34,342 nt of DNA from Desulfobacterales bacterium (lineage in GTDB: Bacteria > Desulfobacterota > Desulfobacteria > Desulfobacterales > JAAELO01): NCBI GenBank assembly GCA_024226555.1, contig JAAELO010000895.1, positions 1 to 34,342 on the forward strand. Reading direction: 5' to 3'. The notes beneath the pieces are model-generated. The model searched no databases. It was not told the origin of the DNA and was given only the letters and a program-made list of their open reading frames with translations. Both the position numbers and the translations under genes were made by a program. Of this stretch, positions 1 through 12,057 are shown in pieces (position 1 is the stretch's first letter; the number at the start of each line of letters is the position of its first letter).

Positions 1-296
1 ACTTCAGCTTTTGCAATTATAAGATCAGAAGATTTATTTGCATTATCTTTCATCTGATCTATAACTTTCTGAGAGTTTAACATAATTCTTTTAAATGTTT
101 CCTCTCTGTTTTTATACTCCTGGGATTCAAGTTTCAGATTTTGAATCTCTTTTCTGTAATCTTCATTTTCATGTAAAAGCTCTTCAAAACCAGAAGCCAC
201 TTCTTCAAGGAATCTATCAACTTCCTGGCTATCAAAACCACGTACTCTGGTGGTAAATTTCTGTTGTTGTATATCCATTGGTGTTAATTTAATCAT
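1..296 (-). CDS. divIVA: DivIVA family cell-division/polarity protein (3' part outside window)
   Basis: Reading the minus strand from the ATG at 294-296 gives about 98 residues that run off the window edge. The N-terminus carries the DivIVA signature: TPMDIQQQKF, then RGFD, then a run like EVDRFLEEVA. A charged coiled-coil follows (Glu/Lys/Gln rich, about residues 35-98). DivIVA proteins bind curved membranes at division sites and poles through this N-terminal segment and polymerise through the coiled coil. An AAAGG ribosome site lies about 8 nt before the ATG. The gene starts 13 nt after the yggT stop on the same strand, the arrangement seen in many bacteria where both belong to a division/envelope cluster. 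The identification rests on the N-terminal motif; the length of the complete protein is unknown. Confidence 0.88.
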   Translation of the reverse strand, partial: MIKLTPMDIQQQKFTTRVRGFDSQEVDRFLEEVASGFEELLHENEDYRKEIQNLKLESQEYKNREETFKRIMLNSQKVIDQMKDNANKSSDLIIAKAE

Positions 297-309
297 ATCT
301 ATAACCTTT

Positions 310-606
310 CTAATGAAGAGAGCTGGCAAAAATTTTAAGTGAATTAATTACAGCACTTTGAAGAAACATTATGATAAAAATAACAATAATAGGGGATATA
401 TCTATACCACCTAAATCCGGTAGCATTTTTCTAAGTCTGTATAATACTGGTTCCGTAATTTTATTTATAAACTGAACAATTGGGTTATTTGGGTCAGGGC
501 TTACCCATGAAAGTACAGCTCTGGCTATTACCACATACATATAAAGATCTAAAATAATACCAAGTATTAATGCAAATGCACCAATGAAGTTTCCAACTAC
601 ATACAT
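310..606 (-). CDS. yggT: YggT family integral membrane protein
   Basis: A 98-residue hydrophobic protein with two membrane spans (about residues 8-32 and 70-90). Between them is the family signature around SWVSPDPNNPIVQFI and TEPVLYRLRKMLP. YggT/YlmG proteins are small inner-membrane proteins linked to envelope or osmotic functions and, in Gram-positive bacteria, to the division cluster; their biochemical role is unsettled. GAGG about 10 nt upstream supports the ATG at 604-606. The gene is followed directly by divIVA on the same strand, so the two are probably co-transcribed. The length matches the single-repeat form of the family (about 90-100 residues). Confidence 0.9.
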   Translation of the reverse strand: MYVVGNFIGAFALILGIILDLYMYVVIARAVLSWVSPDPNNPIVQFINKITEPVLYRLRKMLPDLGGIDISPIIVIFIIMFLQSAVINSLKIFASSLH

Positions 607-736
607 TTTAATAAGTCCTCACAATATTAGAATCAAGTTGAAGAATACATGGAGTTCTCATTGTTAGTCAAGTTTTTTCAATTGTTTGTTTCAATCATAG
701 AGGTAGACTATATTTATAGTTTTATAATATTAAAAA

Positions 737-1555
737 TTATAAACTATCTGAAATATACTTATCCATAGTTTGGTCAAAGCATTTTATGATCTCTTTTACA
801 TATGGTTCTTTTATTGAATTAAGTTGGAAATCACCAATGGATGATATTGGTAGAAATCCAATGGAAGTTCCTGTCAGAAATGCGCCTTTTATTTTTTTGA
901 TATCATCTGTATGAAGCAACTTTTCCTGAACATCAAATCCTTTATTTTTACATATCTTAAGGATATATTTCCTCGTAATGCCTTGAAGAACCTTATTAGC
1001 AGGTGGTGTGTATATCGATTGACCCAAAACAAAAAAAATGTTTGACCTTGCTCCTTCAGTGATAAAATTGTCTTTATTAACAAGAAGGGCTTCTCTGGCA
1101 TTCTCTTTTTTTGTGAGCTTACTAACCCTGCTTTTGAAAGCATCCTTTAGAGTTTTAAAATTTGGATTTTCCCTCTCTCCTTTAAAGAGAATAGTATGAA
1201 CGCCCTCTTCGTAGTTCTCTTTTTTAGGATAGTTGGACTTAACCATATAGGTTAGAAAGGTTTTTTCCCTTGAACATATGACTTTCACATTATTATTTCT
1301 TTTGTTATTTTTCTTAACTAACTCATTGATCTTTTCTTTAATAGATTTATCACTGCATTCAAATGGAATTATCATATTTTTTGCAGAAAATCGCATTCTG
1401 TTCATATGTTCTTCTAAAAAAAGAGCAACACCATTAACAACTTTTATAACTTCATAGACAGAATCATTTTCCAGGCTATTAAATATATCATTATCACTGG
1501 TTGGAGTGAGTTTATTATTTTTAAAATAATATTTGAAAATCGCTTCGTTTTTCAT
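737..1555 (-). CDS. class IV aminotransferase (branched-chain/D-amino acid type)
   Basis: A 272-residue PLP enzyme of fold type IV. Seen directly: the N-terminal YEVIKVVNGVALFLEEHMNR segment typical of IlvE, D-amino-acid transaminase and PabC; the probable Schiff-base lysine K134 in NFKTLKD; E167 in the TEGARSNIFF motif that contacts the PLP ring nitrogen; and the QGITR turn near residue 191. These residues support a working transaminase or lyase. Substrate cannot be assigned: branched-chain amino acids, D-alanine and aminodeoxychorismate are all possible. The ribosome site is weak (AAGA about 8 nt before ATG). The gene stands between yggT and lpdA on the same strand, with the lpdA terminator just upstream, so it probably has its own promoter in 1556-1637. 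Confidence 0.82.
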   Translation of the reverse strand: MKNEAIFKYYFKNNKLTPTSDNDIFNSLENDSVYEVIKVVNGVALFLEEHMNRMRFSAKNMIIPFECSDKSIKEKINELVKKNNKRNNNVKVICSREKTFLTYMVKSNYPKKENYEEGVHTILFKGERENPNFKTLKDAFKSRVSKLTKKENAREALLVNKDNFITEGARSNIFFVLGQSIYTPPANKVLQGITRKYILKICKNKGFDVQEKLLHTDDIKKIKGAFLTGTSIGFLPISSIGDFQLNSIKEPYVKEIIKCFDQTMDKYISDSL

Positions 1556-1582
1556 ATCAAAATCTTATATTGTAGTAAAATG

Positions 1583-1596
1583 TATAAGAGGTTCCC
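1583..1596. repeat. solo end of the GGGAACCTC element family
   Basis: ATAAGAGGTTCCC followed by TTTA matches the terminus plus target flank of the small elements at 5217, 12956, 15684 and 25130. No second end is visible nearby. It is either a deletion remnant or a chance match; the match is about 12 of 13 bases. Confidence 0.35.
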
Positions 1597-1637
1597 TTTA
1601 ACATTTATGATCGGGTTTTTCCAGTGTATACTTTAAG

Positions 1638-1664
1638 AAAAAACCGGATAATTTCCGGTTTTTC
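1638..1664 (-). terminator. rho-independent terminator after lpdA
   Basis: Perfect 10-bp arms, AAAAACCGGA and TCCGGTTTTT, with a 5-nt loop and T-runs on both sides. It lies 19 nt past the lpdA stop on the minus strand. The A/T-rich arms would let it act in either direction. Confidence 0.85.
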
Positions 1665-1682
1665 AAAAAATATTTAAAAAAT

Positions 1683-3113
1683 CTACCCATGAAGCGACAT
1701 GTCAAGTGCTTTAAAAGATGCTTCAAGCATTGCTTCAGAAAGAGTTGGGTGAGCATGGATTGTTTCTGCAAGCTCTTTTACAGTGACACCTTTTTGAACA
1801 GCTAATGTTCCCTCTCCCAAAAGATCTGTTGCCTGGGGTCCAATAATATGAACACCAACAATTTTACCTGTTTTTATTTCTGAAATTATTTTTAACTGTC
1901 CCGCAATTTCACCTAAAACCTGAGCTTTTCCAAGGGTTCTAAATAGAATTGCATCACTCCTTATGTCTAACCCACTATCTTTAGCTGTTTCTTCAGTGTG
2001 TCCAACGTTTCCAATTTCAGGCATTGTAAAAACAGCTCCTGGAATTACATCATACTTCATCTTTCGACTTTTTCCTGTTGCATTATCCACCGCTACTTCA
2101 GCTTCAGTAGAAGCAACGTGTGCGAGCATTACTTTAGATGGACCAGTTATATCCCCTATTGCATAAACCCCATCCACATTTGTTTCCATTTTTTCATTTA
2201 CATTAATCCAGCCCTTTTCGTCGGTTTCAACTCCAATATTTGAAAGACCGATATCGTTTACAGGCGATCTTCCAATGCAAACAAGAATTTTATCAGCTTC
2301 AATTTCAAGAGGGGCTTTATCTTTCTCTTTAATTTTTTCTGCGAAAGGAGATGGTATTGTCACAGCTTTAACTTTTGATCCTTCCATATTAATTGTCTCA
2401 ACAACCCTATCAACATGAAATTTTATTTTGCGTTTTTTCATCTCCCGTTGTAGAATTGATGAACAATCAATATCAACAGATGGGAGAGGTAAAACCCGGG
2501 ACATTGCTTCAACAACAGTTACTTTTGATCCTAATGCTGATAGAATAAAAGCAAATTCACATCCTATTACTCCCCCTCCTATAATAACTATAGATTCCGG
2601 GATTTCAGTCATGTCAAGCAAGTGGTCACTGGATATGATTTTCTCACCATCGAATGGAAATACTGGTACATTTAAAGGCGTTGTTCCTGTTGCGATGATC
2701 AGCTTGTCCCAGTTTATCAAAGTTGACCCACCATCAGGAAGCTCAACTGTAACTTCATTCGGCCCTTTTATGTGAGCCGTACCTTTAATATGATTTATTT
2801 TATGATGTTTCAGGAGCCCTTCAATACCTTTTGTCTGACTGTTTATAATATTTGTTTTTCTTGTTTGAAGGCTTTCCATATCAGGCGTTGCTTTTTCGCC
2901 TAATTTAAGACCGAATTCAGAAGCTTTATTAATGCTTCCTAAAAGATCAGCAGATTTTTTAAAAATTTTGGAGGGTATGCAACCATAGTTGAGGCAAGTT
3001 CCTCCCACATTATATTTTTCTATTAAGGTAACTTCTGAACCCGACTGCGCTGCCCTAACTGCTGCGACATATCCTCCAGGACCTGCACCTATGATTGTAA
3101 TTTTTTTTGACAT
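1683..3113 (-). CDS. lpdA: dihydrolipoyl dehydrogenase (E3 / glycine cleavage L protein)
   Basis: A 476-residue flavoprotein that reoxidises the dihydrolipoyl arm with NAD+. Visible: the FAD-binding GAGPGG near residues 9-14; the redox-active disulfide C40/C45 in GGTCLNYGCIPSK; the NAD-binding IGGGVIGCEFA; the second FAD motif YAIGDI; and the C-terminal HAHPTLSEAMLEA with the catalytic His-Glu. An upstream ATG at 3126-3128 is in frame, but a textbook AAAGGAG sits just before the ATG at 3111-3113, so the shorter start is chosen. The gene is divergent from lrp-gcvT-gcvH-gcvPAB-lipBA, which makes it the likely L protein of that system. It could also serve 2-oxoacid dehydrogenases elsewhere. Confidence 0.95.
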   Translation of the reverse strand: MSKKITIIGAGPGGYVAAVRAAQSGSEVTLIEKYNVGGTCLNYGCIPSKIFKKSADLLGSINKASEFGLKLGEKATPDMESLQTRKTNIINSQTKGIEGLLKHHKINHIKGTAHIKGPNEVTVELPDGGSTLINWDKLIIATGTTPLNVPVFPFDGEKIISSDHLLDMTEIPESIVIIGGGVIGCEFAFILSALGSKVTVVEAMSRVLPLPSVDIDCSSILQREMKKRKIKFHVDRVVETINMEGSKVKAVTIPSPFAEKIKEKDKAPLEIEADKILVCIGRSPVNDIGLSNIGVETDEKGWINVNEKMETNVDGVYAIGDITGPSKVMLAHVASTEAEVAVDNATGKSRKMKYDVIPGAVFTMPEIGNVGHTEETAKDSGLDIRSDAILFRTLGKAQVLGEIAGQLKIISEIKTGKIVGVHIIGPQATDLLGEGTLAVQKGVTVKELAETIHAHPTLSEAMLEASFKALDMSLHG

Positions 3114-3207
3114 ATTAGCTCCTTTCATTTGTTATGTTTTATAATTTGCCATATACGTCGAAAATGTCAAGTTGTATTATTGTATTTGTAAATATTGCCA
3201 AATAATA

Positions 3208-3236
3208 TTGACAAGATGATCATTTTGCCCCATAAA
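3208..3236 (+). promoter_or_regulatory. candidate sigma70 promoter upstream of lrp-gcv
   Basis: TTGACA at 3208-3213, a 17-bp spacer and CATAAA at 3231-3236. The -35 is perfect and the -10 is weak. It lies about 170 bp before lrp in the 293-bp divergent region shared with lpdA. A 7-bp hairpin with arms CTAAAAC/GTTTTAG at 3314-3335 lies between it and lrp and could be an operator. No glycine riboswitch is recognisable here. Confidence 0.3.
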
Positions 3237-3406
3237 TAAAACTTAAGGTACATTAAAGTTAATAGCATTTAAAAAATGCTGCGTTTATCCAGTAGGATTT
3301 GGCTAAAAAAATACTAAAACGTTTCAGGGTTTTAGCACTAACAAAACATTGTAGTAGATATGGTCTCAAAGGTAAATCAGATTAAATCTTAATAAGGATA
3401 AATTTT

Positions 3407-3859
3407 ATGAAAATTGACAAAACAACAGTTGAAATAATTAACCGGCTAAAAGATGGAAGAACACCTTTTAAAAAAATTGCCGATGATCTGTCCCTTGCAG
3501 AAGGAACCGTTAGGTCAAGAGTCAAGAAACTGAAAGATGAAGGTATTTTAGAAATTACAGGTCTTGTTGATCCTGAAGCTATTCCCGGGCAGAGCATTGT
3601 AATGATCGGTGTGAAACTGAACACTATGGATCTTGTTGGGAAAGGTGAAGAGATCAGTAAACTTAAAGGCGTGGTTTCTGTGTGTGTTGTGACAGGTCGT
3701 TTTGATCTTGTAGTAACAACAGCTTTTAAAAAAGGTTTTGGACTTTTGGAATTTTATACAGAACAGATGTCCAAGGTTGGTGATGTTCAATCAGTTGAAA
3801 CTTTTGTTGTTTATAAAGCGTACAATTTAAAGGTTCCCTGCGAAGAGTGCAGTATATAA
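3407..3859 (+). CDS. Lrp/AsnC family transcriptional regulator
   Basis: 150 residues. An N-terminal winged helix-turn-helix (about residues 4-50: FKKIADDLSLAEGTVRSRVK) is joined to a C-terminal RAM/AsnC ligand-binding domain (about 62-140), with the family's GRFDLVVTTA strand. Lrp/AsnC proteins bind DNA as dimers or octamers and sense amino acids. It is the first gene of the gcv cluster, 28 nt before gcvT, and is divergent from lpdA. I infer that it controls both directions in response to glycine or a related amino acid. AAGGA before the ATG supports the start. The ligand cannot be read from sequence. Confidence 0.88.
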   Translation: MKIDKTTVEIINRLKDGRTPFKKIADDLSLAEGTVRSRVKKLKDEGILEITGLVDPEAIPGQSIVMIGVKLNTMDLVGKGEEISKLKGVVSVCVVTGRFDLVVTTAFKKGFGLLEFYTEQMSKVGDVQSVETFVVYKAYNLKVPCEECSI

Positions 3860-3887
3860 TAATTAAAAAAATTAAGAGGAAAATGAT

Positions 3888-5156
3888 ATGCAGGATAAAG
3901 TAAAAGCAACTAAGATGCATGAGTGGCATATGTCAAATGGTGCAAATATGGGTAATTTTGGAAATTACGATATGCCTTTATGGTACCCAAAAGGTGCAAA
4001 AGAGGAGCATCTTTCAGTTGTAACAGCTGCTGGTTTGTTTGATACAAGTCATATGGCAGCAGTTACAGTAACAGGAGAACATGCCTTTGATCTATTGCAA
4101 CTTTGTTTTTCAAAGGATCTTAATAGTTGCATTGGGAAAAGCAAAACCCCGATCGAAATTGGTAAATGTGTTTATGGAGTTTTTCTTGATGAAGAAGGTG
4201 GTGTGATTGATGATGCCATAGTTTATAAGCTCGAGACCAATATCTATATGATTGTTGTTAATGCCGCTATGGGAGGAACGATAGCAGCGACACTTGAATC
4301 AAAAAAAGAGAACAACATTGTAATGATTGAAGATCTTACCGATAAACTTGGTAAGATGGATGTTCAGGGACCAAATTCAGCAAAAATACTGTCCAAAATA
4401 ATTAAAAATCCTGAGAAAGTATTTGAATCCTTTGGTTATTTCAACTTTAAAGGACATCACAATGATGCATCGATGCTTTCGGACGATGTAAGACTTCTTG
4501 ATGGCACACCAATTCTTCTTTCACGAACAGGTTATACCGGTGAATTTGGATTTGAGATATTTGTTGATGAAAATAAAACCCTTGAACTCTGGGAAAAAAT
4601 CATTGAAGCAGGTGCAGAATTTGACCTTGTTCCATGTGGACTTGCTTCAAGGGATTCTCTGAGAGCAGGAGCGGTTCTTCCTTTATCACACCAGGATATA
4701 GGTTCATGGCCATTTTCGAATAATCCATGGCACTTTGCACTTCCTTATAATGTTACAATATCAGATTTTACAAAGGATTTTGTAGGAGCTTCCGCTTTAA
4801 AAAATATTAAAGATAGAAAATATACATATCCCTTTGCTGGCTTTGATCTTCGTAAAATTGCAACGGAGAATAGTAAAGTTTTAGATGAGAGTGGTAACGA
4901 AATTGGAACAGTTTTAACCTGTGCAACAGATATGGCCATTGGAAGAAGTGATGGTAAAATATACAGCATAACTTCCCCTGATAAGCCTGAAATGAAAATT
5001 AAAGGACTGTGTTGCGGATTCGTTCAAATTAACACTCTTACAAAATCTGGTCAGACTATATACCTGAGTGATGGTAAAAGAAAACTGAAAGTTGAAATAA
5101 GAAGTGATGTTCGCCCTGACAGAACAGCACGAAAAAGAATAAAAGATATGATTTAA
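3888..5156 (+). CDS. gcvT: aminomethyltransferase, glycine cleavage T protein (long form)
   Basis: A 422-residue GcvT-family protein, longer than the usual 360-375. T protein moves the aminomethyl carbon from lipoylated GcvH to tetrahydrofolate, releasing ammonia. Family landmarks: HMAAVTVTG near residue 55; the folate-site region with MDVQGPNSA; the RTGYTGEFGFEIF block; and ASRDSLRAGAVLPLSHQDI, equivalent to the invariant LGARDxLRxEAG region. The C-terminal domain is the expected barrel ending in RSDVRPDRTARK. AGAGG about 10 nt upstream marks the start. It is followed by gcvH after a 278-nt gap filled by a mobile element. The divergent sequence suggests the long GcvT subgroup; a folate-dependent paralog with another substrate is less likely, given the operon. 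Confidence 0.88.
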   Translation: MQDKVKATKMHEWHMSNGANMGNFGNYDMPLWYPKGAKEEHLSVVTAAGLFDTSHMAAVTVTGEHAFDLLQLCFSKDLNSCIGKSKTPIEIGKCVYGVFLDEEGGVIDDAIVYKLETNIYMIVVNAAMGGTIAATLESKKENNIVMIEDLTDKLGKMDVQGPNSAKILSKIIKNPEKVFESFGYFNFKGHHNDASMLSDDVRLLDGTPILLSRTGYTGEFGFEIFVDENKTLELWEKIIEAGAEFDLVPCGLASRDSLRAGAVLPLSHQDIGSWPFSNNPWHFALPYNVTISDFTKDFVGASALKNIKDRKYTYPFAGFDLRKIATENSKVLDESGNEIGTVLTCATDMAIGRSDGKIYSITSPDKPEMKIKGLCCGFVQINTLTKSGQTIYLSDGKRKLKVEIRSDVRPDRTARKRIKDMI

Positions 5157-5166
5157 AATTTCAGAA

Positions 5167-5190
5167 AATTCTAATGATTATTAGAGTTTA
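5167..5190. repeat. solo end of the GGGAACCTC element family
   Basis: AAATTCTAATGATTATTAGAG strongly resembles the element terminus in inverted orientation and forms a short palindrome (CTAAT/ATTAG). It starts 10 nt past the gcvT stop and 27 nt before the full copy at 5217. It is probably a remnant of an earlier insertion. Confidence 0.4.
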
Positions 5191-5216
5191 AAAAAACAGC
5201 AGGATTTTTAAATAAA

Positions 5217-5415
5217 GGGAACTAATAATTAGAATTTTGGATGAAATACAGCGTTTATAAAAGCTTTTAGTTTTATAAAAAAAAACGAGCCGATTCGTTT
5301 ATAAAGAAGGTTTTATTTTATAAAGTTTACAGTTTTTTTTGGGAAATAGTTCTGTTGTTTTGCTTTTTTAAACAACTTAAGTATTTCGCCAAAAGAGCAG
5401 TTATTAGAAATTCTC
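5217..5415 (+). mobile_element. small non-autonomous inverted-repeat element (MITE-like), copy A
   Basis: About 199 bp. It starts GGGAAC-TAATAATTAG and ends TTATTAGAAATTCTC, imperfect inverted repeats of one another. Flanking 4-bp TAAA copies (5213-5216 and 5416-5419) look like a target-site duplication. It shares a subterminal GGATGAAATAC / GTATTTCGCCAAAAGAG pair and an inner hairpin (GTTGTTT ... AAACAAC) with copies C and D. It encodes no protein. It lies between gcvT and gcvH and ends one base before the gcvH Shine-Dalgarno. Confidence 0.8.
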
Positions 5416-5434
5416 TAAATAAGGAGGAACAAAA

Positions 5435-5830
5435 ATGAAAGAGATAAACGAGCTAGTACTACCGGAAGATTATAAATATACAGCAGAACATGAGTGGGTA
5501 AAAAAAGATGGTGATACTCTTCAGATTGGAATTACTGATTATGCTCAGGATCAACTTGGGGATATCGTATTCGTAGAGTTCCCGGAAATTGGAGATTCTT
5601 TCGATAAAGATGAAACATTTGGAACTCTTGAGTCAGTAAAAGCTGTTTCGGATCTGTTCCTTCCTGTTGGTGGTGAGATTGTGGAAATTAATGAAGCTCT
5701 TGAAGATGAACCTGAACTTTTGAATTCAGATCCCAATGGAGCATGGATTGTAAAAATCAAACCATCAGATGAGAGTGAATTTGACTCACTGATGAGTAAA
5801 GAAGCGTACCTAAACCAACTGAAAGGATAA
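5435..5830 (+). CDS. gcvH: glycine cleavage system H protein
   Basis: A 131-residue lipoyl carrier. The lipoyl-attachment lysine K69 lies in GTLESVKAVSDL, and the family's YTAEHEWV start (residues 15-22) and LNSDPNGAWIVKI segment are present. GcvH shuttles the aminomethyl group between P, T and L proteins. A strong AAGGAGG at 5421-5427 sits 7 nt before the ATG and directly abuts the mobile element at 5217-5415. gcvPA follows after 4 nt. The length is normal for the family. Confidence 0.97.
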   Translation: MKEINELVLPEDYKYTAEHEWVKKDGDTLQIGITDYAQDQLGDIVFVEFPEIGDSFDKDETFGTLESVKAVSDLFLPVGGEIVEINEALEDEPELLNSDPNGAWIVKIKPSDESEFDSLMSKEAYLNQLKG

Positions 5831-5834
5831 TAAC

Positions 5835-7169
5835 ATGAGATATTTACCTCATACAGAAGAAGAGATATCTTCTATGCTGAAGGTTGTAGGGGTAAAAACG
5901 CTGGATGATCTATTCCCTACTATACCTGAAGATTGTAAAATGGAAGGAGATCTTAAGCTTCCGGAACCCATGACAGAATGGGAACTTAATGATCATATGG
6001 ACTCACTTGCCGGTAAAATGGGAAGTTCCAGTGAATATAAGGTTTTTGTTGGTGCAGGAAGTTACAATCATTTTATTCCGGAATCCATCAACTATCTTCT
6101 GGGAAGATCTGAGTTTTCTACAGCATATACACCTTATCAACCAGAGATCAGCCAGGGTACTCTTCAGGGCATTTTTGAATATCAGACACTTGTTGCAAGA
6201 CTCCTTGGAATGGATATCGCTAATGCTTCTATGTATGATGGAGCATCTGCTTTAGCCGAAGCGCTTTTAATGGCTATAAGAATAACCAGGAAAAAGAAAG
6301 TAGCTGTTTCAAAAGCAATCCACCCAAGCTACAGAAAAGTTGTTGAAACATATTTTCATCCAACTAAATATGAGATTGTAGAGATTCCATATTTGGATAA
6401 TGGAAGAATAGATCTTTCATCAATCACAAATGTTGGCGATTTTGCAGCCATTGCTGTCCAGTCACCTAATTTTTTTGGTGTTATAGAAGATTTAAAAGCA
6501 GTAAAAGCATTAACGGAAAGCGAGAAGAAAACAATGCTTGTTACTTGTTTTTCTGAACCACTTGCATATGGATTGTATAAAAATCCTGGAAGTCTGGGAG
6601 CAGATATTGTTTGTGGTGAAGGACAGAGCTTTGGAATTCCCCAGTCCTATGGAGGACCAGGTCTTGGAATGTTTGCATGTAATAATAAATTTATGAGAAA
6701 TGCCCCAGGAAGACTTATAGGTCAGACTACAGATCTTGAAGGAAAAAGAGCATATGTATTAACCCTTGCAACACGAGAACAGCATATAAGACGTGAGAAA
6801 GCGACTTCAAACATCTGTTCTAACCAGGGACTTTGTGCAATGACCTCTGCAATGTACATGGCATCAGTTGGTGGAACAGGCATAAAGAAACTTGCAAAGG
6901 TTAATTTTGACAAAACTGAGTACTTCAAATCTGAGCTTAAAAAGAAGGGTATTAAAATAAAATTTGATACCCCAACTTTTAATGAATTTGTAGCTGAATT
7001 TTCAGAGGGGTTTGATAAAACCCATAACAAACTTAAGGAAGAAAATATTATTGCAGGGCTTAAACTTGAAGATTACTACCCAGAACTGAAAAATAATTAT
7101 CTCTTCTGCATTACTGAAACAGCTAGCAAAGAAGATATTGATAAACTGGTCCAGGAGGTGACGAAATGA
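5835..7169 (+). CDS. gcvPA: glycine dehydrogenase (decarboxylating) subunit 1
   Basis: A 444-residue alpha subunit of the split P protein. It has the usual opening YLPHTEEEISSML, followed by FVGAGSYNHFIPESINYLLGRSEF and YTPYQPEISQGTLQGIFEYQ. It pairs with GcvPB to decarboxylate glycine and load the aminomethyl group onto GcvH. It lacks the PLP lysine, which is in GcvPB. Start 4 nt after gcvH, with AAGGA in the end of gcvH as ribosome site. The stop overlaps the gcvPB start (ATGA), which fits coupled translation of a 1:1 complex. Length is normal for the split form. Confidence 0.96.
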   Translation: MRYLPHTEEEISSMLKVVGVKTLDDLFPTIPEDCKMEGDLKLPEPMTEWELNDHMDSLAGKMGSSSEYKVFVGAGSYNHFIPESINYLLGRSEFSTAYTPYQPEISQGTLQGIFEYQTLVARLLGMDIANASMYDGASALAEALLMAIRITRKKKVAVSKAIHPSYRKVVETYFHPTKYEIVEIPYLDNGRIDLSSITNVGDFAAIAVQSPNFFGVIEDLKAVKALTESEKKTMLVTCFSEPLAYGLYKNPGSLGADIVCGEGQSFGIPQSYGGPGLGMFACNNKFMRNAPGRLIGQTTDLEGKRAYVLTLATREQHIRREKATSNICSNQGLCAMTSAMYMASVGGTGIKKLAKVNFDKTEYFKSELKKKGIKIKFDTPTFNEFVAEFSEGFDKTHNKLKEENIIAGLKLEDYYPELKNNYLFCITETASKEDIDKLVQEVTK

Positions 7170-8620
7170 ATGACAATATAGTTGCAAAAGGAATCGTTCA
7201 GGACGAATCTCTCCTTTGGGAAAAAGGCAAAAAAGGAAAAGAAGGATTCTCAGTTCCTAAAAATGATGTTGGATCTTTTGAAGTTGATAGTGATCTTTTG
7301 GGAGAAGGACCAGATTTTCCGGATCTTTCAGAAGTTGAAGTTGTCAGACACTACACAAGACTTTCCCAGTGGAACTTTGGTCTTGACACAGGGATGTACC
7401 CTTTGGGTTCCTGCACTATGAAGTACAATCCAAAAACCAATGAGAGACAAGCATCTCTTCCCGGTTTTGCAGGATCACATCCACTTCTTGCTGAAGAACT
7501 ATCCCAGGGCGCTTTAGAGCTAATTTATAATCTTGAACAACATCTCTGCGAAGTAACAGGAATGGATGCAATAAGCCTTCAACCAGCAGCAGGAGCTCAT
7601 GGTGAACTTGCCGGAATGTTAATTTTCCATGCATATCACCAAAAAAAAGGTGCTCAGAGAAATAAAATATTAATTCCAGATACAGCCCACGGAACAAACC
7701 CTGCAAGTGCCGCTCTTTGTGGATATAAGTCAATTCCGGTCCCTTCCAATGAAGATGGAATTCTTGATCCCAAAACTGTTGCTGAATTAATGGATGAAGA
7801 TACTGCTGGTATAATGATAACAAACCCTAATACATTAGGACTTTTTGAAGATAATATCCTTGAGATAAATAAGATTGTTCATGATAAAGGTGGTCTTGTT
7901 TATGCAGATGGTGCCAATATGAATGCGGTTATGGGTATTGTGCAGATGGGTAAAATAGGTGTGGATGTAATGCACCTTAATCTTCATAAAACCTTTTCAA
8001 CTCCACATGGTGGAGGTGGTCCAGGGTCCGGCCCTGTTTGTGTTACCAAAGAGCTTGAGAAATTTCTACCGGTACCAAGAGTAGAAAAACAGGGTGATAA
8101 GTTTATTCTTGTTGATAACAGACCAGATTCAATTGGAAAACTTCATGCTTTCTACGGAAATTTCAGCATTCTGATCAGAGCTTACAGTTATATCCTGACT
8201 ATGGGTAAGGACCTTAAAAAAGTTAGTCAATATGCTGTTCTTAGTGCAAATTACATCAAGGAAAAACTTCGGGGAGATTTCCATATTCCTTATGACAGAC
8301 CTTGTATGCACGAGTGTATAGTTAATGACAAACTTCAGGAAGAAAATCATGTATCAACACTTGATATAGCAAAAAGACTTATGGATTATGGCTTTCATCC
8401 GCCAACAATATATTTTCCACTTGTTGTTAGTGGGGCAATGATGATTGAACCTACTGAAACAGAGTCAAAGGAAGATATTGATAAGCTTATTGAAGTTTTA
8501 AAAATTATTGCCAAAGAGTCAAAAGAGAATCCCGATATGCTTAAGGAATCTCCTAAGTTTTGTCGAATGAGAAGACTGGATGAAACAACTGCGGCAAGAA
8601 AACCTTGTTTAACAGGGTAG
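7166..8620 (+). CDS. gcvPB: glycine dehydrogenase (decarboxylating) subunit 2, PLP-binding
   Basis: A 484-residue beta subunit of the split P protein. Landmarks: YPLGSCTMKYNP near residue 79; LQPAAGAHGELAG near 138; DTAHGTNPAS near 172; and the Schiff-base lysine K275 in NLHKTFSTPHGGGGPGSGP. It catalyses the PLP-dependent decarboxylation of glycine. GGAGG just before its ATG lies within the gcvPA coding end. It is followed by a terminator, so the gcv transcript probably ends or is attenuated before lipB. Confidence 0.97.
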   Translation: MNDNIVAKGIVQDESLLWEKGKKGKEGFSVPKNDVGSFEVDSDLLGEGPDFPDLSEVEVVRHYTRLSQWNFGLDTGMYPLGSCTMKYNPKTNERQASLPGFAGSHPLLAEELSQGALELIYNLEQHLCEVTGMDAISLQPAAGAHGELAGMLIFHAYHQKKGAQRNKILIPDTAHGTNPASAALCGYKSIPVPSNEDGILDPKTVAELMDEDTAGIMITNPNTLGLFEDNILEINKIVHDKGGLVYADGANMNAVMGIVQMGKIGVDVMHLNLHKTFSTPHGGGGPGSGPVCVTKELEKFLPVPRVEKQGDKFILVDNRPDSIGKLHAFYGNFSILIRAYSYILTMGKDLKKVSQYAVLSANYIKEKLRGDFHIPYDRPCMHECIVNDKLQEENHVSTLDIAKRLMDYGFHPPTIYFPLVVSGAMMIEPTETESKEDIDKLIEVLKIIAKESKENPDMLKESPKFCRMRRLDETTAARKPCLTG

Positions 8621-8640
8621 AAATTTAAGTTACAAATATA

Positions 8641-8677
8641 GGGTCGGTTCTTATATAGGAATCGACCTTTTTATTTT
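8641..8677 (+). terminator. rho-independent terminator after gcvPB
   Basis: Arms GGTCGGTTC (8642-8650) and GAATCGACC (8659-8667) with one mismatch, followed by TTTTTATTTTTTT. It lies 21 nt after the gcvPB stop and ends close before lipB, so lipB-lipA expression probably depends on read-through or on a promoter within this stretch. Confidence 0.8.
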
Positions 8678-8689
8678 TTTATTGGAATT

Positions 8690-9370
8690 ATGACAACATA
8701 TTCTATAAACTTAGGCATCACTGACTACAAAGAGATCTACGATCTTCAACGCTCTATTGCATTGAAAAAAGAGAATGGAGAGCTTTTAGACAATTTTGTA
8801 TTCTTTCTTGAGCACAAAAGTGTTTTCACCCTTGGCAAAAGGGGTGGAAAAGAAAATCTTACGGTTACGGATGATTTTCTTGAAGAGAAAGGAGTTAGTG
8901 TTGTTCATGTGGAAAGAGGCGGGAATATAACATATCATGGAGAGGGGCAGATAATCGTCTATCCTGTTATAGATCTTAAACAGTTTGGATTTTCCGTCAA
9001 AGATTATGTTTCAAAACTTGAAGATATTATGATCAGTACATCCCGTGATTTTGGAGTTGATATCAATAGAAATGAGCTTAACAGGGGCACATGGGTTGGA
9101 AACAAAAAAATAGGTAGTGTTGGGATAGCAGTAAAAAAGGGCATTGTTTTCCATGGGCTTTCGTTAAATGTCAGGCCTGATTTAACTCCATTTAAATGGA
9201 TTAATCCGTGTGGACTTGAAGGAGTTGGAATAACTTCTCTTGAGCACGAGCTCGGGGTGGAAATCAATATTGATAATGCATATGACAGGATTATAGAGAA
9301 TACTAAAGAGATATTCGAAGTTAATTTTAAACCTATGACAAAAGAGAATTTACTTACAAAAGTGATGTGA
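8690..9370 (+). CDS. lipB: octanoyltransferase (lipoyl/octanoyl transferase)
   Basis: 226 residues. LipB moves octanoate from acyl carrier protein to lipoyl domains such as GcvH. Conserved: RGGNITYHGEGQIIVYPVIDL (about residues 76-96); the catalytic lysine around K140 in KKIGSVGIAV; and the acyl-thioester cysteine C174 in INPCGLEGVGITS. The ribosome site is weak (GGA), and the ATG follows a terminator T-run by only 12 nt. lipA begins 4 nt after the stop. Its place behind gcvH suggests a dedicated lipoylation route for the glycine cleavage H protein. Confidence 0.95.
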   Translation: MTTYSINLGITDYKEIYDLQRSIALKKENGELLDNFVFFLEHKSVFTLGKRGGKENLTVTDDFLEEKGVSVVHVERGGNITYHGEGQIIVYPVIDLKQFGFSVKDYVSKLEDIMISTSRDFGVDINRNELNRGTWVGNKKIGSVGIAVKKGIVFHGLSLNVRPDLTPFKWINPCGLEGVGITSLEHELGVEINIDNAYDRIIENTKEIFEVNFKPMTKENLLTKVM

Positions 9371-9374
9371 TGCA

Positions 9375-10274
9375 ATGAAGATACGAAAAAAGCAAAAACC
9401 GGAATGGTTAAAAAGAACACTTCCCACTGGTCCTGAATATGAAAGAATGAAGAAACTTCTTTCGGGTAATAACTTGAATACTGTTTGCCAGGAAGCGAAA
9501 TGCCCTAATCAGTTTGAATGTTTCTCAAAAGGAACTTCAACTTTTATGATTATGGGTGAAAAGTGCACAAGAAATTGCAACTTCTGTGCTGTTCAGAATA
9601 ATCCAATAGATTTGCCAGATCTTAAAGAACCAAAAAGAGTTTCCAAAACAGTTGAGAAAATGAATCTTTCCTATGTTGTTATTACTTCTGTAACAAGAGA
9701 TGATCTTGAAGATGGCGGTGCATCTTTTTTTGCTGAGACAATAAGGGAGATAAAAAAACTTAATAAAGATATTCTTGTGGAGGTGTTAATACCCGATTTT
9801 CAAGGCAATAAGAAGGCTCTTAAAACTGTTCTTGATGCAAAACCCGATGTACTAAACCACAACATAGAAACTGTTCCTTCATTATATCACAGAGTCAGAC
9901 CTGAAGCGATATATGAAAGATCCCTCGATCTGATTAAGAGATCCAAAGCTTATGCTCCGGGAATACCCACAAAATCAGGTCTTATGGTTGGGCTTGGTGA
10001 AAAAAAAGAAGATCTTATACAAACTTTTCAGGACCTTGTAGAGCATGGTTGTGATGCTTTAACTATAGGACAATATCTTCAACCATCAAAAGACCACCTT
10101 CCTGTTGAGCAATTTGTAACTCCGGAAGATTTTGAAAATTTAAGGGAAATTGCACTTGAGAAAGGTTTCATAGAAGTTGCAAGTGGACCTTTTGTAAGGA
10201 GTTCTTATCAGGCAGCCAGCCTGTTTGAAAAGGTTAACAACTGTTCCCAACATATAGAACATAATCAAATATAG
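9375..10274 (+). CDS. lipA: lipoyl synthase (radical SAM)
   Basis: 299 residues. LipA inserts two sulfurs into protein-bound octanoyl chains. The auxiliary [4Fe-4S] cysteines are C38, C43 and C49 (CQEAKCPNQFEC). The radical-SAM cysteines are C64, C68 and C71 (CTRNCNFC). The C-terminal RSSY at 275-278 carries the serine ligand of the auxiliary cluster. All ligands are intact. The gene is coupled to lipB (4-nt gap). The GcvH-LipB-LipA grouping means the cluster can make its own active H protein. No clear terminator follows. Confidence 0.96.
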   Translation: MKIRKKQKPEWLKRTLPTGPEYERMKKLLSGNNLNTVCQEAKCPNQFECFSKGTSTFMIMGEKCTRNCNFCAVQNNPIDLPDLKEPKRVSKTVEKMNLSYVVITSVTRDDLEDGGASFFAETIREIKKLNKDILVEVLIPDFQGNKKALKTVLDAKPDVLNHNIETVPSLYHRVRPEAIYERSLDLIKRSKAYAPGIPTKSGLMVGLGEKKEDLIQTFQDLVEHGCDALTIGQYLQPSKDHLPVEQFVTPEDFENLREIALEKGFIEVASGPFVRSSYQAASLFEKVNNCSQHIEHNQI

Positions 10275-10353
10275 ATTTTACACTACCTATTTGTTTTCAA
10301 ATTTGATATTTAATATATTATTAGCAATAAACAATCGGGGTAATTTTTTATAA

Positions 10354-10671
10354 ATGATTGATGTAAGTTTGAAATTTAATGAATTCTTTTTGGAAGTTAC
10401 TATATCCGTAGAATCTATCCAGACACAAAAACAGATCTGTTTAACTCTCTTCTAACCCACGAAAAAAGGGAACCAGGTTTACACCTATTCTGATGGATGA
10501 ATCTAATGTTTTAGCAGAAGATATGACTGATATTGATGTACAGAAAATTGCATTTCAATGCGTAAAACGTAAAGACGAATTTGGAGTTCTGGTTGAAAGA
10601 AATGGGATGTAACCTATGAATTTTTCAGATCAAGAGATGAAACTGTAGAATGGTTAGAAAATGACTCATAA
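10354..10671 (+). pseudogene. decayed copy 1 of a tandem STAS/SpoIIAA-like gene
   Basis: It starts like its two downstream paralogs (VSLKFNEFFLEVTIS against VSLKFNKWFFDVVIS) and ends like them (FFRSRDETVEWLENDS). The frame breaks after about 30 codons, at a deletion near 10430, and again near 10600, where the RDLEFG region is lost. At least two frameshifts are needed to read it through. It is the first of three tandem copies with a near-identical leader between units. Confidence 0.7.
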
Positions 10672-10689
10672 AAAAAAGGTATAATTGCA

Positions 10690-11070
10690 ATGGAAGTCAG
10701 TTTGAAATTCAATAAATGGTTTTTTGATGTCGTTATTTCTGGCGATTTTATCCCAAATGAGTATGAAGGTTTCTTTTTCAATATGTTAAATGATAAAAAC
10801 TGGAAACCCGGAACACCTGTTTTGATTGATGAAACTAATTTCCTTTCTAAAAACCTTTCTATTGAAGAGATTAAAGAGATCGCTAATCAATGTGTAAGAT
10901 TGAGACATAAATTCGGACCTGCAAAGTGTGCTATTTTTGTTTCCCGTGACCTTGAGTTTGGAGTAAACAGAATGGGGGAAGTGTTTGTAGAAAATGAATG
11001 GGATGTTGTTTTAGAGTTTTTCAGATCAAGAGAGGATGCTATCGAGTGGTTAGGAAATGACTCAGAATAA
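10690..11070 (+). CDS. STAS/SpoIIAA-like domain protein, tandem copy 2
   Basis: A soluble protein of 126 residues. The pattern (beta strand, then PGTPVLIDETN, a helix IEEIKEIANQC, the strand AKCAIFVS, a helix, then VVLEFFRSREDAIEWL) resembles small STAS/SEC14-like or SpoIIAA-like proteins, where the last helix follows a conserved FRSxEDAxEWL. These are often regulatory or lipid/nucleotide-binding modules; no catalytic motif is visible. It is about 88% identical to the next copy over 121 residues, so the duplication is recent or maintained by gene conversion. Start chosen at ATGGAAGTC behind AAAGGTATAATTGCA, a leader repeated in front of copy 3. Family assignment is by pattern only. Confidence 0.7.
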   Translation: MEVSLKFNKWFFDVVISGDFIPNEYEGFFFNMLNDKNWKPGTPVLIDETNFLSKNLSIEEIKEIANQCVRLRHKFGPAKCAIFVSRDLEFGVNRMGEVFVENEWDVVLEFFRSREDAIEWLGNDSE

Positions 11071-11086
11071 TAAAGGTATAATTGCA

Positions 11087-11491
11087 ATGGAAGTCAGTTT
11101 GAAATTCAATAAATGGTTTTTTGATATCATCCTCTCTGGTGATTTTATCCCAAATGAATATGAAGGTTTCTTTTTCAATCTGTTAAATCATAAAAACTGG
11201 AAACCTGGAACACCGGTTTTAATTGATGAAACTAATTTCCACTCTGAAAATCTTTCTATTGAAGAGATCAAAGAGATCGCCAATCAATGTTCAAGGCTAA
11301 AACATAAATTTGGACCTGCAAAATGTGCTATTTTTGTTTCCCGTGACCTTGAGTTTGGAATAAACAGAATGTGGGAAGTGTTTGTAGAAAATCAGTGGGA
11401 TGTTGTTTTAGATTTTTTCCGATCAAGAGATGATGCAATAGAATGGCTTAAAGAAGAGATATTAACCTCAGAAACTGGTAAAAAAAAATAA
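11087..11491 (+). CDS. STAS/SpoIIAA-like domain protein, tandem copy 3
   Basis: 134 residues, the near-twin of copy 2 with about 14 substitutions in the first 121 residues and a different C-terminal tail (KEEILTSETGKKK). An ATG at 11057 is in frame but overlaps copy 2. The conserved leader AAAGGTATAATTGCA immediately before 11087, identical to that of copy 2, argues for the downstream start. One difference is G-to-W at the position after NRM. It lies 8 nt before the next, inversion-split gene, which carries the same AAAGGTATAAT leader, so all are probably one transcript. Function unknown. Confidence 0.7.
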   Translation: MEVSLKFNKWFFDIILSGDFIPNEYEGFFFNLLNHKNWKPGTPVLIDETNFHSENLSIEEIKEIANQCSRLKHKFGPAKCAIFVSRDLEFGINRMWEVFVENQWDVVLDFFRSRDDAIEWLKEEILTSETGKKK

Positions 11492-11499
11492 AAGGTATA

Positions 11500-12057
11500 A
11501 TGACAATTAGAATTTTAGAAGACTCAGATGAAATAACCCCGGAAATTGTCCGTGAGTGGGGCTATGATGAAGAATTATATGTTTGTTCAATATATGCTAA
11601 CAAACTATTCACATAAGAAAACCAGGAAGATGCATAACCGGAGTCTGGTTTTTTCATAGAATTAATAAAATTACTTAGTTTCTCCAGGCTCTTTAAACCT
11701 CTGATTTTGTGCAGAACAACTACTTCCCTGCAAAACTGACATAGTATAACAAAAGCATATTCACTCTTTGGGCATTTTTCATCAGATACTAACTCTAATA
11801 GAACAGGAAAATATTGTAAATCATACAATAACAGATCTTCATCCTGCTCCATCAAAGGACCTGTTGATAATAAAATAGCATCTCAAATGTCAAATGACCT
11901 TCTACTTGGTTTTGGAAGAGTTGGAGAACTTAAGGAAACTGAATCCGGCAGATCTGGTTGGTGCCGTTTTACGCTCAAAACCAGCGTAACAGAACATATA
12001 GATGTATGTTATGAAACCGGAAAATTGTATACGTTCCATATTACAATTGTGATTTAG
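11500..12057 (+). pseudogene. hypothetical protein gene split by an internal inversion
   Basis: The plus strand opens with ATG at 11500 (MTIRILEDSDEITPEIVREW) behind AAAGGTATAAT, the leader used by the preceding paralogs, and is read through GYDE. It stops at 11616 in the present orientation. A good C-terminal segment (SNDLLLGFGRVGELKETESG ... FHITIVI) ends at 12057 in the same frame. The 278 bp between 11566 and 11843 are flanked by the inverted 8-mer GATGAAGA/TCTTCATC and are open on the minus strand. Flipping them restores one uninterrupted frame of 186 codons including the stop, with both junctions in frame. I do not recognise the family. It is either inactivated or phase-variable. Confidence 0.65.
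11566..11843 (-). other. inverted DNA segment carrying the middle of the split gene
   Basis: Bounded by GATGAAGA at 11566-11573 and its reverse complement at 11836-11843. On the minus strand it lies within an open frame of 97 codons (11562-11855) with protein-like composition: FPVLLELVSDEKCPKSEYAF, then FVILCQFCREVVVLHKI. That frame has only a poor ribosome site and a TTG/ATG start outside the repeat. I read it as the displaced middle of the 11500-12057 gene rather than as a gene of its own; an independent minus-strand gene is the alternative. Confidence 0.6.

Follow-up and report, generated by a model that had tools for sequence, protein, structure and literature searches.

We describe a gene in contig JAAELO010000895.1 of a Desulfobacterales bacterium (assembly GCA_024226555.1, positions 1 to 34,342 of the forward strand) that, by comparison with its homologs, is one gene whose middle lies inverted in this assembly. 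We consider it probable that a recent, one-off and conservative inversion of about 275 bp killed the gene. The window, by which we mean the whole stretch analysed (34,342 nucleotides), is one whole contig of a draft genome of 7.69 Mb, which comprises 904 contigs and is 98% complete. An earlier note, made from the letters of this DNA, had proposed one gene split by an in-frame internal inversion, and this is borne out by 8 of the 10 homologs that were found (L054-L061), in which the N-terminal, middle and C-terminal parts stand in one frame, in the re-inverted order and uninterrupted over both joints. The parts of the gene, and the ranges that the homologs leave for the ends of the inversion, are as follows.

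11500 to 11580 (possibly to 11583), plus strand: N-terminal part; on its own it matches the profile with an expectation value (E) of 3.4e-5, and its start aligns with the starts of the homologs
11581 to 11855, minus strand: inverted middle, about 275 bp; matched by the eight-homolog profile on minus 11855-11580, and the best clean flip
11856 to 12057, plus strand: C-terminal part and stop codon; profile match from model position 112, E 1.3e-5
11580 to 11584, no strand: left inversion boundary, as the range left by the homologs
11852 to 11856, no strand: right inversion boundary, as the range left by the homologs

The E values for the N- and C-terminal parts alone refer to a set of seven sequences. 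The middle carries the most conserved motif, EQDEDLLL...CPK. As the DNA now stands, the plus frame meets three stops in the middle. All that the plus strand encodes is an N-terminal stub of 38 residues, and the gene is therefore off.

The homologs were found by way of the minus strand, which continues as MEQDEDLLLYDL past the boundary set in the earlier note; the guess that relatives share MEQDEDLLLYDL prompted a pattern search. With an alignment containing artificial rows, the patterns EQDEDL[LM]L and EDxDEITPE, and tblastn, 60 stretches were matched and 10 loci confirmed. The best homolog comes from a Chloroflexota bin, with 44% identity in the best segment and residues 1-181 covered, and one from Leptolyngbya sp. 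FACHB-8 has 40% identity. The others belong to Kibdelosporangium aridum, a Burkholderiales bin, an Aureispira bin, a Saprospiraceae bin, Actinoplanes flavus, Streptomyces phytophilus, Olleya marilimosa and a Chitinophaga bin. None of the 10 matches the 97-codon minus-strand frame of the middle as a protein of its own.

A profile was built from the eight full-length homologs, with the window left out of it; L062 and L063 were excluded, as both match the first half only and L063 has a stop soon after the motif. Among 56 genomes this profile matched only in the present one, on minus 11855-11580 at model positions 24-112. We then reversed every segment with a left end at 11520-11640 and a right end at 11795-11920, giving 15246 flips, 1372 of them stop-free. 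The best profile score, 134.7 bits, went to 11580/81..11855/56, followed by 11584..11852 (133.4 bits) and 11582/83..11853/54 (132.9 bits). The flip of 11566..11843 put forward in the earlier note scored 84.1 bits and ranked 788 of 1372. Pairwise scores against the two nearest homologs gave 661 for 11584..11852, 647 for 11580/81..11855/56, 645 for 11582/83..11853/54 and 513 for 11566..11843. A scan that used codon use only, trained on 434 kb of the genome, placed the ends for this gene at 11586 and 11852, with 14.4 bits for the N-terminal part, 11.3 for the middle and 18.0 for the C-terminal part.

The spacing of conserved residues points to the same ends. The motif W-x11-DEDL is present in all 10 homologs (in L060 and L061 the script picked an earlier W, and reading the same output by eye gave the spacing of 11), and LxxY-x17-D stands at the second joint in five of the eight full-length homologs, being absent in the other three. 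Flipping 11581-11855 restores both spacings, 11 and 17, whereas the flip of 11566..11843 gives W-x2-DEDL (counted by eye) and LLAY-x26-DLLLG. Of the 15 columns without variation in the eight full-length homologs, the restored protein also retains 14, the exception being A49, which is V here. By a hand count on the sequence, the junction codons need six bases and exactly six lie between the matched parts, which makes the inversion conservative. Since the residues at both junctions differ between homologs, the cut points are fixed only to within about 4 bases.

The earlier note had placed the ends of the inversion at a short inverted repeat, whose arms are these.

11566 to 11573, plus strand: left arm of the 8-bp repeat, GATGAAGA; not the recombination site
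11836 to 11843, minus strand: right arm of the 8-bp repeat, TCTTCATC; a direct repeat in the restored gene

Both arms are present as described, the minus strand is open over a 97-codon frame at 11562-11855, and reversing 11566-11843 does yield an uninterrupted 185-residue frame from 11500 to 12057. It is the location that fails, since the homologs place the boundaries at 11580-11584 and 11852-11856 instead. Counting pairs whose arms start 150-600 bp from each other, the window has 450 perfect inverted matches of at least 8 bp; 7 of them, the pair in question included, create on flipping a new frame of at least 100 codons over both joints. Taken alone, an open frame after a flip at the 8-bp repeat is therefore not beyond chance, and it is homology that lifts the finding above it. 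Once the gene is restored, the two copies of GATGAAGA share a strand, with their starts 27 bases apart, and code for Asp-Glu-Glu and Asp-Glu-Asp. Such direct repeats could not have given rise to this inversion; the copies face each other now only because the second one sits in the inverted piece. Two runs of acidic codons produce the 8-bp inverted repeat by accident.

At the true boundaries no inverted repeat was found in any of the five best placements. Their flanks agree at 4-7 of 26 positions, where 6.5 are expected with equal base use, and share 0-1 base; random site pairs shared 0 or 1 base in 16,123 of 20,000 draws. The best 14-base similarity within 60 bp of the joints was 10, a value matched by 51 of 100 random pairs. 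Strand exchange by site-specific recombinases needs an identical overlap, and the sharing of 0-1 base, together with the lack of a tyrosine- or serine-recombinase match on the contig, argues against an enzyme of that kind. Ku was not found in the genome, 98% complete as it is, which argues against Ku end joining; in a control set of 14 genomes it was found in one.

Three other explanations have to be weighed. In the one that the earlier note had raised as a shufflon-like switch, a recombinase would flip 11566-11843 between the 8-bp repeats and so turn the gene on and off. The repeats exist, the flipped frame is open, the surroundings of the two sites agree at 15 of 26 positions, and the genome has 25 tyrosine-recombinase and 3 serine-recombinase matches. 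These matches, however, all lie on other contigs; the statement that the window lacks a recombinase gene thus holds for the tyrosine and serine families, other families not having been sought. Moreover, the product of such a flip loses the region around the conserved EQ of EQDEDL, carries nine extra residues at the second joint and scores 50 bits below the best flip, and repeats that are direct in the restored gene could not yield the present order. We give this explanation almost no credence, and the switch, like the 8-bp repeats as inversion sites, is not supported; the inactivating scar, offered in the earlier note as the alternative, stands. We also think it very unlikely that the inversion is programmed or reversible and made, base for base, at the true boundaries by an undescribed enzyme or process that needs no inverted repeat. 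An exact inversion with all parts intact would suit such a process, as would joints that lie near or between helices in the model of a homolog, but we know of no enzyme that makes inversions of this sort, and the 434 kb examined showed no second case, although this look was a weak one. It covered 20 stretches (400 kb) and the window, out of 7.69 Mb, with a scan of coding potential only; 118 candidates passed loose thresholds and 13 passed tighter ones, the broken gene scoring lowest of the 13. The others are, by eye, mostly neighbouring or antisense genes, and homology was not applied to them.

The chief rival is an assembly error, in which a piece of about 275 bp was mis-oriented and the gene of the organism is intact. 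Undamaged parts, an unchanged number of bases, joints free of repeats and a genome in which Ku was not found are all expected of a mis-oriented piece, and the genome is a draft of 904 contigs. On the other hand, an assembler that works with overlapping words needs reads over both joints, and the 434 kb looked at contain no N and hence no scaffolding gaps. We rate an assembly error as a real but smaller chance, and a genuine, recent inactivating inversion as the probable explanation. Several points nevertheless weigh against the latter. A single assembly is the only source for the inversion, whose clean book-keeping is equally expected of an assembly error. With neither a repeat nor Ku found, the way of rejoining lacks an explanation. 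The genomes searched from the same order and phylum offer no close relative that could date the event. EQDEDL belongs to one of the two search patterns, and its presence in the homologs is thus partly selected. Finally, a codon model trained on the window and scored at the boundaries of the earlier note found the middle weak, with 5.3 bits over 93 codons, where the first percentile of true pieces is 14.6, and the C-terminal part low, with 14.2 bits over 70 codons, where the fifth percentile is 13.2. The N-terminal part was ordinary (6.7 bits, 22 codons), the proposed frame came top of six for each of the three parts, and the larger training set of 434 kb gave the middle 11.3 bits.

If the inversion did take place in the organism, it was probably one illegitimate event: a double template switch, or breakage at both ends followed by reversed rejoining of the segment. 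Given that none of the three parts has yet been closed by a stop, we suggest that this event was recent, and we also suggest that the inversion is not programmed to flip back.

Such a gene resembles several known systems in part. As in intragenic invertons and shufflons, a reversed segment lies inside a coding region and is in frame with both flanks once flipped back. Those systems, however, use inverted repeats and an invertase, while the true ends here are without repeats, and a flip at a repeat should restore the native protein, whereas here it yields 84.1 against 134.7 bits. The inverted repeats of bacterial invertons are given as 10-40 nt in one report (PMC11892184) and as typically 10-20 in another (PMC5903667). 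Microinversions attributed to template switching or break repair likewise replace a short segment with its reverse complement, without gain or loss. The exact human-chimpanzee microinversions, of 17-33 nt, are all flanked by inverted repeats according to PMC8755829, and differ in this from the present case of about 275 bp and no repeat. Like a pseudogene made by rearrangement, the gene has intact relatives elsewhere and is itself interrupted by one structural change, but it shows no decay beyond the lesion itself, which is an exact inversion. Inversions of about 275 bp without repeats in bacterial genes were not found in the literature, which was not searched in that exact wording and of which subscription journals were mostly uncovered.

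The case shows how a frame that opens when the DNA is flipped at short repeats can lead astray: according to the homologs, the flip is real and its location is elsewhere. Screens for intragenic inversions that rely on repeats would call a switch here for the wrong reason, or miss the case. If our explanation is true, bacteria would provide a case of an exact inversion, about 275 bp long and free of repeats, in a genome where Ku was not found, and the origin of such inversions would become a testable question.

The family to which the gene belongs, of about 180 residues with a helical part followed by a beta sheet and the signature W-x11-DEDL...CPK, is rare and unnamed. The broken gene is a single copy in its genome, as judged by a genome search. 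None of 57 other genomes of the same order matched, and among 395 genomes of the phylum the only convincing match was in this genome, with E between 0.01 and 0.1 in 14 others. Samples of other phyla were just as sparse, with 1 of 386 genomes matching in that of Leptolyngbya, 1 of 400 in Chloroflexota and 1 of 398 in that of the Burkholderiales bin, in each case only the centre genome. The patchy spread and odd codon use may reflect horizontal transfer. In both the Aureispira bin (L058) and the Saprospiraceae bin (L059), the homolog stands in the same neighbourhood, at about 6001-9800, before open reading frames (ORFs) that by eye look like a glycosyltransferase, an epimerase and a kinase. In the two half-length loci, L062 at 5764-6414 (Olleya) and L063 at 5818-6093 (Chitinophaga), W-x11-DEDL follows an N-terminal part that by eye is cysteine-rich and zinc-ribbon-like.

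Database searches gave the family no name. With the eight homologs, NCBIfam and Pfam returned only matches to single members, at E 0.02 or worse, and no family fits. An ARM-type Pfam match to the middle was weak (E 8e-5, 22.6 bits against a cut-off of 79.9) and was set aside. The protein from the flip at 11566-11843 matched 45 stretches on genome contigs and 3 on viral contigs, none confirmed, and gave nothing useful in NCBIfam. On viral contigs the minus-strand frame matched 13 stretches, and queries A1 and A2 matched 67 each, again none confirmed. Nothing useful came from plasmids and phages searched with tblastn, from plasmids searched with homolog L054, or from PDB sequences, PHROGs and PADLOC. 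An AlphaFold2 model of the Chloroflexota homolog, with a mean predicted local distance difference test (pLDDT) score of 86.7, has seven helices and four C-terminal strands. Foldseek, run with the model for homolog L054, gave nothing at E <= 0.001. Against solved structures, a second aligner matched the helices to ARM/HEAT-type repeat proteins and designed ones, with Z up to 6.4, and the C-terminal part to cystatin-like and other sheets, with Z up to 6.9. These matches to a predicted model may reflect only a common arrangement and are weak, and we therefore claim no function.

Directly upstream of the broken gene lie two further ORFs and a leader shared with them.

10690 to 11070, plus strand: SpoIIAA-like ORF, by a weak Pfam match; unrelated to the broken gene
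11087 to 11491, plus strand: second tandem copy of the SpoIIAA-like ORF, 88% identical to the first
11491 to 11501, plus strand: leader AAAGGTATAAT, overlapping the ATG at 11500

The 11-base leader precedes three ORFs, at 10675, 11072 and 11491, the third of which is unrelated to the other two. The earlier note was thus right that the broken gene carries the same AAAGGTATAAT as the upstream paralogs, but the spacing differs: from the first base of the leader to the ATG there are 15 bases in the two SpoIIAA-like paralogs and 9 in the broken gene, which brings the leader 6 bases nearer. At 10573-10662, directly before the two tandem copies, lies the remnant of a third SpoIIAA-like copy (47% identity over 31 residues, with one internal TGA), and the copies together form a small array with turnover.
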